DNA from: Urbifossiella limnaea
Lineage (GTDB): Bacteria; Planctomycetota; Planctomycetia; Gemmatales; Gemmataceae
Length of the DNA: 64,000 nucleotides
Assembly (NCBI RefSeq): GCF_007747215.1
Contig: NZ_CP036273.1
Coordinates: forward strand, 5,192,322-5,256,321
Reading direction: 5' to 3'
In this document: piece by piece, positions 26,279 through 31,040 of the stretch
How positions within the stretch are numbered: position 1 is the stretch's first letter
Layout: each line of letters opens with the position of its first letter
Notes under the pieces: generated by a model
What the model saw: the letters and a program-made list of their open reading frames with translations, nothing else
What the model was told of the DNA's origin: nothing
Database searches by the model: none
Position numbers and translations under genes: made by a program

Positions 26279-27025
26279 TCAGCGGCCGCCCGCCGGCAGC
26301 GGCCGCGTCCAAACGTCGGCCATCAGCTCGTAGATCGCCGGCTCACTCTCCTTCAGTTCGGCCCGCGTGAACGGGAAGAAGTCGTTCACTCCGAAGTACG
26401 CCTCCGTCATCTCCGCAAAGAACTCCATCGGGTTCGTCAGGGCGTAGTGCTTGACCCGCCGGCCGTCGTACAGCAGCGCCTTCTCGCCGCGGCCGCTCGC
26501 CCGGTACGCCTCGAACGCCTCGCGGACGCGCGGGTTGTCGAACCCCAGCACCTGGTCGTGGTACGCGTGCGCCAGCTCGTGCAGGATTACCCACGGCATG
26601 TCGCTGACGTTCCGCTTCGTGGCCAGGTCGGCGGCCCGCGGCAGGTGGACGCACTTCGCCAGGTTCGTGGCGTACCCGTTGTTCTTCAGCCAGCCGGCGC
26701 TCGGGTGGTACTGCATCGGGCCGATCTGGCCGTAGTCGAGGTCGAGCTGGATGGTCACCTTTCGCAGCTTCGCCAGCCGGTCGGGCGGCATCACGATGAT
26801 GATGTCGGCCAGCTTGTTCTCCAGGAACCGCAGCGACGTCCGCCGCAGGTCGTCGTTCCCCGGCAGCTTGAGCCGGTCGTCCACGCGGACGTTCCAGCCC
26901 TCGATCACGTGCGTGGTGTGGGCCGCCGGCAGCGGCACGACCGGCCGCGGCGGCGGGGCGACCGGGAGCGGGTCGGCGGCCGTGGCGGAGGCCGTCAGCA
27001 GCAAAGTGGCGAGGAGGCGGGTCAT
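26279..27025 (-). CDS. Secreted zinc metallopeptidase-like protein (HELAH)
   Basis: A 248-residue exported protein with a signal peptide (about residues 1-17). The zinc motif HELAH occurs in MPWVILHELAHAYHDQ, and a downstream Glu, as in EFFAEMTEAYFG, is the likely third ligand (gluzincin pattern). This combination resembles the catalytic domain of the anthrax lethal factor/Pro-Pro endopeptidase class and planctomycete hypothetical proteins. Substrates are unknown. The gene starts 3 bases after the S1 protease gene ends, so the two are probably cotranscribed and may act in the same compartment. Confidence 0.75.
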   Translation of the reverse strand: MTRLLATLLLTASATAADPLPVAPPPRPVVPLPAAHTTHVIEGWNVRVDDRLKLPGNDDLRRTSLRFLENKLADIIIVMPPDRLAKLRKVTIQLDLDYGQIGPMQYHPSAGWLKNNGYATNLAKCVHLPRAADLATKRNVSDMPWVILHELAHAYHDQVLGFDNPRVREAFEAYRASGRGEKALLYDGRRVKHYALTNPMEFFAEMTEAYFGVNDFFPFTRAELKESEPAIYELMADVWTRPLPAGGR

Positions 27026-29015: not shown

Positions 29016-29088
29016 CCCAATCCCCCGGTCCGGTTTCACCCGCACCGCCGGCACGACGCCGCTGGGGACTCACGGAGGGACGCCGAGA

Positions 29089-29862
29089 ATGGCCGCACGT
29101 AAAGACCCGCCCGCGCCGCCCGCCCGCCCCCTCATCGGCATCAACGCCGAATTCTTCAACCCGAAGAACGGCACCGCCCACCTGAAGCTCAACGCCGCGT
29201 ACCTCGACGCGGTCATCGCCGCCGGGGCGCTGCCGGTCATCATCCCGCCGCTCCGCAAGGACAACCTCGCCGAGATCGACGCCCTGCTGGACACGGTGTG
29301 CGGCGTCATCCTCACCGGCGGCGCCGACATGGACCCGCGCCGCAACGGCCAGGCGCCGACGGCCGCGGTCACGCCGATGGCGGCGCGCCGCGAGGACGCC
29401 GACCGCTACCTGCTGGCCAAGATTTTCGAGCGGAAGACGACGGTGCTCGGCATCGGCCTCGGGATGCAGCAGCTGAACGTGTTCGCCGGCGGCACGCTGT
29501 ACCTCCACCTGCCGGCCGAGAACCCGCGGGCGATGCCGCACTACGACCAGACCGGCGCCCCGCACCGGCACATGGTGCTGATCGAGCCGAACACCCGGCT
29601 CGACGAGATCTACGGCGCCCCCGAGCTGCGGGTGAACAGCCAGCACCACCAGGCGGTGAACCAGCTCGGCAAGAAGATGCGCGTCGCCGCCCGCGCCCCG
29701 GACGGCGTCGTCGAGGCGATCGAGAGCACCGACCCGACCTGGTTCTGCGTCGGCGTCCAGTGGCACCCCGAGGCCGACACCGCCAGCGCGCTCGACGGCC
29801 AGATTTTCGAGTGCTTCGTGCAGGCCGCCGTCCGCAGCGCGGACGAGCTGGTGGCGGCATAA
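29089..29862 (+). CDS. C26-type glutamine amidotransferase homologue lacking the catalytic Cys
   Basis: A 257-residue protein of the gamma-glutamyl-GABA hydrolase (PuuD-like, peptidase C26) class I amidotransferase family, with GGAGGG before the ATG. The family fold is clear: LIGINAEFF, ILTGGADMDP, GMQQLNVFAGGTLY, VNSQHHQAVNQLG and GVQWHPEAD with the His-Glu of the triad. The nucleophile elbow, normally GICRG, reads GIGLG: residue 123 is Gly (codon at 29455-29457). Without the Cys, glutamine hydrolysis by the usual mechanism is not possible, so this is likely a binding protein or a pseudoenzyme. It lies 2 bases before the AnmK homologue and probably shares its transcript. Confidence 0.85.
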   Translation: MAARKDPPAPPARPLIGINAEFFNPKNGTAHLKLNAAYLDAVIAAGALPVIIPPLRKDNLAEIDALLDTVCGVILTGGADMDPRRNGQAPTAAVTPMAARREDADRYLLAKIFERKTTVLGIGLGMQQLNVFAGGTLYLHLPAENPRAMPHYDQTGAPHRHMVLIEPNTRLDEIYGAPELRVNSQHHQAVNQLGKKMRVAARAPDGVVEAIESTDPTWFCVGVQWHPEADTASALDGQIFECFVQAAVRSADELVAA

Positions 29863-29864
29863 CC

Positions 29865-31040
29865 GTGTCCCGCGTACTGGTCGGTCTCGCCGTCGGCTCC
29901 GGGCTCGAAGGGGCCGACGCCGCGGCGGTCCGCTGTCCCGGCGTCGGCCTCGCGCTGACGCCGGCCGTGCCGAAGGCCGTGCGCGTCCTGTTCCCGCCCG
30001 CCGCCCGCGACCAACTCCGCCCCGGCGCCACGCCCACGCCGGAACTCGTCCGCAACGTCGCCGACACGCTCGCCCACGCAACGCGAACCGTCCTGGTTCA
30101 GGCCGGCGTGTCGGCCCGCGACGCCTTCGTGGCCGGGCTACTGCCGCCCGCCCGCGCCGCCGACAACCTGATCCCCTGGGCCGAGGTCGCCGACCGCGTC
30201 GCGGAGCAGACGGGCGTGAGCGTCGTCCACGGCTTCCGCGGCCGCGACCGTGCCGCCGGCGGCGCCGGCCAGCCGATCACCGCCGCGGCCGACTTCCTGC
30301 TGCTGAAGGCCGACGCCGAGGACCGGGTGCTGGTCCACCTGGGGTCGGTCGTGCAGGTCGTCCACGTCCCCGCCGGCGGCAAGCTCAAGGACGTGACCGC
30401 GTTCGAGGCCGGGCCGGGGAACCAGCTGCTCGACGCGATGGCCTACCACGGCACCCGCGGCCGCGACCTGACCGACCCGGGCGGCAAGACCGCCGTACAG
30501 GGCCGCCTCCGCGACGAGCTGCTGGCCCGCTGGCTCGACCACCCGCACCTGACGCGGAAGCCGCCGAAGGCCGTCCACGCCGACGCCTTCGGCCGGTCGT
30601 TCCTCCTCGCCGCGTTCGACGCCGCCCGCCAACTCGGGGCGGGTCTGCCCGACCTGCTCTGCTCCGCGACGCACCTGGTCGCCCGCGCCGCCGCGGCGCA
30701 AGTGCCGCCGGCGACCGGCCCGCGCCGCGTGCTGCTCAGCGGCGGCGGCGTCCGCAACGGCTTCCTGTGGCAGCGGCTCGCGCACGAGTTCGACGGCACC
30801 ACGGTCGGCCGCACCGACGACGCCGGCCTGCCACCGCTGGCGCGGAACGCCGCCGCCGCGGCGGTACTCGCGGCGCTGACGTGCGACGGCGTGCCCGGCA
30901 ACCTTCCCGTCTGGACCGGCGCCGCGGGTGGCCGCTTGGTCGGCCAGCTCGCCCCGGGCGACGGCCGCAACTGGGCGCGGCTCCTCGCGTGGGCTGCGGA
31001 CCAGACTGCCGACGTGCCCCGAGCCTCGCGGGCGGCGTAA
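29865..31040 (+). CDS. Anhydro-N-acetylmuramic acid kinase homologue with altered active site
   Basis: A 391-residue AnmK-family protein. Start is a GTG at 29865, two bases after the preceding stop. AnmK kinases open anhydro-MurNAc with ATP during cell-wall recycling. Family landmarks seen are GRDRAAGGAGQPI, FEAGPGNQLLDAM, LLSGGGVRNGFLWQRL and PGNLPVWTGA. However, the N-terminal phosphate loop, usually MSGTSLDG, is degraded to AVGSGLEG, and the catalytic Asp of the (F/Y)DxGPGN motif is Glu (residue 181, codon 30405-30407). The LNIGG segment is HLGS. Activity as a kinase is therefore doubtful, although Glu might still act as the base. It sits between the Cys-less amidotransferase homologue and a DUF58 gene. 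Confidence 0.8.
   Translation: MSRVLVGLAVGSGLEGADAAAVRCPGVGLALTPAVPKAVRVLFPPAARDQLRPGATPTPELVRNVADTLAHATRTVLVQAGVSARDAFVAGLLPPARAADNLIPWAEVADRVAEQTGVSVVHGFRGRDRAAGGAGQPITAAADFLLLKADAEDRVLVHLGSVVQVVHVPAGGKLKDVTAFEAGPGNQLLDAMAYHGTRGRDLTDPGGKTAVQGRLRDELLARWLDHPHLTRKPPKAVHADAFGRSFLLAAFDAARQLGAGLPDLLCSATHLVARAAAAQVPPATGPRRVLLSGGGVRNGFLWQRLAHEFDGTTVGRTDDAGLPPLARNAAAAAVLAALTCDGVPGNLPVWTGAAGGRLVGQLAPGDGRNWARLLAWAADQTADVPRASRAA

Follow-up and report, generated by a model that had tools for sequence, protein, structure and literature searches.

Cysteine-less homologues of C26 class I amidotransferases in the class Planctomycetia

The 64,000-nucleotide stretch of the Urbifossiella limnaea genome analysed here (the window) carries a gene for a homologue of the C26 (PuuD/SpuA-type) class I amidotransferases, in which the position of the nucleophilic cysteine is occupied by glycine (Gly123). 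Cys-less C26-like genes of this kind extend over the whole class Planctomycetia, where they are nearly universal and usually present in a single copy. As judged from its sequence, the encoded protein is a new, class-wide pseudoenzyme variant, and by its defining residue it should not be classified among the C26 peptidases. Class I amidotransferase domains that are dead are already known in principle. In ureotelic carbamoyl phosphate synthetase I (CPS I), the glutaminase domain is dead and has retained the class I amidotransferase fold after the loss of its cysteine. The likeness to the planctomycete protein lies in this fold kept without the cysteine; the CPS I domain is part of a large enzyme, whereas the planctomycete protein is free-standing and conserved across a bacterial class. 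No description of a Cys-less C26 protein in planctomycetes was found in the open-access literature, the coverage of which is incomplete, and amidotransferases go unmentioned in the main text of the essential-gene paper on Planctopirus limnophila (PMC10632474).

The gene, its product and solved relatives

The gene lies at positions 29089-29862 of the forward strand and encodes a protein of 257 amino acids, which was assigned using Pfam, an AlphaFold2 model, Foldseek and an orthologue search. The reading frame is open farther upstream of 29089. The ATG at 29089 matches the starts of the orthologues, similarity to which begins at residue 1, and a Shine-Dalgarno-like GGAGGG sequence (29074-29079, forward strand) is located 9 nt before it. 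The frame is intact and its GC3 is high. The reading frame, its start and the good ribosome site are as the preliminary description of this DNA gave them. The Peptidase_C26 profile (PF07722) matches the protein over its entire length with 189 bits (cut-off 20.5), and the NCBIfam PuuD equivalog cut-off is missed (92.4 versus 266 bits). A search of the genome revealed no second dedicated C26 protein. PADLOC gave no match to the gene, and a role in defence is not supported.

The AlphaFold2 model of the protein, built from 54 members of the class, has a mean pLDDT of 88.5; residues 152-154 are of very low confidence and belong to a low-confidence block at about 141-160. The best PDB matches of the model found by Foldseek are SpuA and PuuD, with TM values of about 0.84-0.87. 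By sequence and model, the window protein has the C26 (class I amidotransferase) fold, and the earlier claim of a preserved fold stands.

The nucleophile elbow of the protein reads GIGLG (residues 121-125, encoded at 29449-29463 of the forward strand, with the Gly123 codon at 29455-29457). At the aligned place, the solved C26 proteins Lin1909 (3fij) and SpuA (7d4r, 7d50) have GICRG or AICRG. The title of the SpuA entry 7d50 names a glutamyl-thioester, in agreement with a cysteine nucleophile. The two remaining residues of the former triad, His226 and Glu228, are in place in the HPE motif (29764-29772, forward strand) within an unbroken GVQWHPE segment. The substitution at the elbow and the retention of the His-Glu pair, both read from the sequence in the preliminary description, are borne out by these comparisons.

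The window protein shares its fold, its length, the His-Glu pair and the GGxD and NSxHH segments with PuuD (6vtv) and SpuA (7d4r, 7d50), the gamma-glutamyl hydrolases of polyamine catabolism. It differs from them by the absence of the nucleophilic cysteine and of the elbow arginine, by invariant residues of its own and by a score far under the NCBIfam PuuD cut-off. The closest solved sequence identified with phmmer is Lin1909 (E 1e-25), an uncharacterised C26 protein from Listeria, which unlike the window protein has retained the cysteine (AICRG).

Distribution, origin and conservation of the Cys-less proteins

Clear orthologues, defined by an E value below 1e-50, were found in 52 of 59 related genomes, and these cover all eight families sampled in the class. 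Their elbow residue is glycine in 46 cases, alanine in five and serine in one, and is never cysteine. A scan of public genome contigs yielded 80 named loci from the Gemmatales, Pirellulales, Planctomycetales and other Planctomycetia, partly from the same genomes as the 59-genome set; 79 of these have glycine, one has alanine and again none has cysteine. Since cysteine occurs in none of the 52 orthologues and in none of the 80 further loci, the substitution is not a matter of chance or of sequencing error. That the glycine might be common to planctomycete homologues had been raised in the preliminary description, and the loss proves to be class-wide. In a phylum-wide search, proteins of the Planctomycetia scored 355-395 bits and everything else scored 219 bits or less. 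Outside the Planctomycetia, 23 proteins from the phylum's other classes were read, and each contains the cysteine. An orthologue with an intact GICRG was sought in close relatives and not found; the GVCRG proteins present in several of them form a separate, paralogous family in the tree. Two of the contigs with genes of the Planctomycetia type (L092 and L131) are titled Candidatus Kuenenia stuttgartiensis and are probably mislabelled metagenome-assembled genomes (MAGs).

In a maximum-likelihood tree of 121 Cys-less and Cys-containing C26 proteins, a single branch divides all Cys-less from all Cys proteins, with support of 100/97 and presence in all 200 bootstrap trees. The Cys-less state is regarded as derived because solved C26 enzymes from outside the phylum also carry the cysteine. 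On this sequence evidence, the tree shows that the nucleophile was lost a single time, at the root of the class Planctomycetia or close to it, from what would have been a Cys-His-Glu enzyme, and that the gene was vertically inherited thereafter. A second Cys-less C26 family occurs in the Gemmataceae. It has aspartate at the nucleophile position and HPA, HPG or QPA in place of HPE (L054, L059, L063, L065, L067, L068, L069 and L070), so that His or Glu is often missing; it sits inside the Cys-less side of the tree on a long branch, which makes its placement uncertain. In four genomes (G019, G027, G029 and G030) this Asp-type family was the only one detected, and no Gly-type gene was found.

The alignment of 80 Cys-less sequences has glycine at position 123 in 77, alanine in two and serine in one, whereas all 33 comparison sequences have cysteine. 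D153, R160, E179, W218 and D236 are invariant in the Cys-less clade (80/80) and are its own, and H140 (79/80), Y175 and L235 are nearly so. Among the positions that are strict in the Cys family, D80, H161, H186, H187, D205, E209, E212, Q224 and H226 are retained in 79-80 of the 80 Cys-less proteins. Besides C123, two strict C26 positions have changed: of the 80 sequences, 35 retain Q188 and 48 retain W225. His226 is present in 79 sequences and Glu228 in 74, with replacement of the latter by His or Gln in some lineages. No cysteine position is conserved among the 80 sequences. C71, C220 and C242 of the window protein were considered as substitute nucleophiles and rejected as unconserved; the commonest of them, C220, occurs in 35 of 80 sequences, and 32 have alanine there. 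A cysteine at position 78 is found in only 13 of 80. The possibility of another cysteine acting as nucleophile, envisaged in the preliminary description, is not borne out by these sequences.

Comparisons between congeners gave dN/dS values of about 0.09-0.30 for the C26-like gene. The Cys-less sequences have invariant residues of their own in common, and for this reason the gene is judged to be under purifying selection and not decaying; the absence of decay had already been maintained in the preliminary description. At the level of sequence, the residue pattern is one of changed function rather than decay. That the gene is on its way out is extremely improbable and already refuted by its conservation. 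The lost nucleophile and one MAG with an in-frame TAG could be cited for such a course, but the gene is conserved throughout the class, has low dN/dS values and invariant residues, and combines high GC3 with intact frames, all of which speaks against it. The TAG is located just after the elbow (GMQ*L) in the C26-like gene of this MAG (L041:2437-3150, G044), and is due either to an error in sequencing or to one broken copy.

The AnmK-like neighbour

The next gene (29865-31040, forward strand) starts with GTG at 29865, two bases past the stop of the C26-like gene, and encodes a kinase homologue of 391 amino acids. The protein matches PF03702 with 152 bits and remains below every NCBIfam AnmK cut-off. 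Its model has a pLDDT of 89.9, and Foldseek relates it to the fold of AnmK (1,6-anhydro-MurNAc kinase) and levoglucosan kinase, with which it has the fold and most of the domain in common. Its active site is altered, as was noted early on: Glu181 stands in the column of the catalytic aspartate, which we take to be D182 in Pseudomonas aeruginosa AnmK, and GSGLEG takes the place of GTSxDG, the motif for nucleotide binding. The genome contains no other AnmK homologue.

AnmK homologues are present in 33 of the 59 genomes, and in 29 of these 33 a copy immediately follows the Cys-less C26 gene on the same strand. Among the 80 named loci, 16 have an AnmK-like gene, always downstream and on the same strand. 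The idea that this neighbour is conserved, which goes back to the preliminary description, holds for its position where it occurs but not for its presence, as it is absent from many genomes. Because many genomes with the C26-like gene have no AnmK, the AnmK-like protein is not an obligatory partner. The genes beside AnmK-less copies vary from genome to genome; a FabH-like gene is found upstream in about 20 named loci, and no widely conserved neighbour other than the AnmK-like gene was found around the C26-like gene. Two genomes that yielded no Gly-type C26 gene also have AnmK-like genes of the adjacent type (L220:3879-5156 in G029 and L221:124-1398 in G008).

The catalytic aspartate column contains D in only seven of 41 non-distal AnmK-like copies, compared with all four distal copies. 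Since the aspartate is rare in this column and the distal copies form a branch of their own, the adjacent copies are a diverged type. Some of them retain near-canonical motifs and may therefore have kept kinase activity. Two of the distal copies adjoin MurQ. MurQ, whose company would point to anhMurNAc recycling, scores above cut-off in only eight genomes out of the 29 that carry an adjacent AnmK-like copy, including the window genome, and in all four genomes with a distal canonical AnmK. The MurQ homologue of the window genome (L219, G000:C1:748008-748877) lies within a frame of 669 amino acids; the corresponding frames of other Gemmataceae have 606-669 amino acids, and the protein may be fused to another domain.

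Possible function of the C26-like protein

The best explanation, to which we give about an even chance of being correct, makes the protein a C26/PuuD-family pseudoenzyme that occurs throughout the class and is a non-hydrolytic binder of a gamma-glutamyl or glutamine-like ligand. Ligand binding or regulation in place of hydrolysis had also been suggested in the preliminary description. An ancestral Cys-His-Glu enzyme would have lost its nucleophile in a single event near the base of the Planctomycetia; the gene would then have been inherited, usually as one copy and under purifying selection, and would have gained its own invariant residues. The pocket would still bind such a ligand without cleaving it, since most pocket residues (D80, H161, S184, H186, H187, D205, E209, E212, Q224 and H226) are kept and the nucleophile is gone, and the protein would act as a sensor, a carrier or a regulatory subunit. 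In lineages with an adjacent AnmK-like gene, both proteins probably act in one process.

The retention of His226 (79/80) and Glu228 (74/80) exceeds the obvious needs of a pure binding protein, and the changes at Q188 and W225 may have left the pocket unsuited to a gamma-glutamyl group. The main rival to the binding protein is accordingly an enzyme that works independently of cysteine, which we consider rather unlikely. His226, together with Glu228, would activate water or serve in acid/base catalysis, D153, R160, E179 and H140 would hold the ligand, and the glycine would make room for an altered one. The same two triad residues and the charged clade-specific invariants, of which D153 and R160 lie in or beside the low-confidence loop at about 141-160, agree with such an enzyme, but there is no conserved candidate nucleophile and Glu228 has given way to His or Gln in some lineages; the sequence pattern fits an enzyme and a binding protein alike. 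Still less probably, the protein serves another protein mainly as a structural or allosteric subunit, in the manner of a dead glutaminase domain like the one in CPS I; its partner would be the AnmK-like protein wherever that occurs. The placement of the AnmK-like gene right behind the C26-like gene in the same orientation (29 of 33 AnmK genomes, 16 of 80 named loci) and the two-base spacing in the window would suit a subunit; the many genomes with the C26-like gene and no AnmK, the lack of any other widely conserved neighbour and the two genomes with an adjacent-type AnmK-like gene and no detected Gly-type C26 gene do not.

Beyond the preferred reading of a binding protein, we tentatively propose that the Planctomycetia fixed, in or near their common ancestor, a free-standing nucleophile-less C26 protein that took on a new core job: it would either sense a gamma-glutamyl-type metabolite or work as a Cys-independent enzyme. 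Several lineages would have paired it with a kinase homologue that also lacks catalytic residues, so that two pseudoenzymes would share an operon. That a pseudoenzyme is inherited vertically, occurs almost universally and is usually single-copy suggests a conserved, class-specific function. The Planctomycetia have an unusual cell envelope and cell division, and the function can be tested in the genetically tractable Planctopirus limnophila. Automatic annotation would probably name the gene gamma-glutamyl-GABA hydrolase or glutamine amidotransferase and its neighbour AnmK throughout the class, and both names are probably wrong with regard to activity.

Elsewhere in the window, the reverse-strand stretch 26279-27025 encodes a HELAH zinc-metallopeptidase-like motif and gives weak, below-cut-off matches to the M90 and ATLF metallopeptidase profiles.
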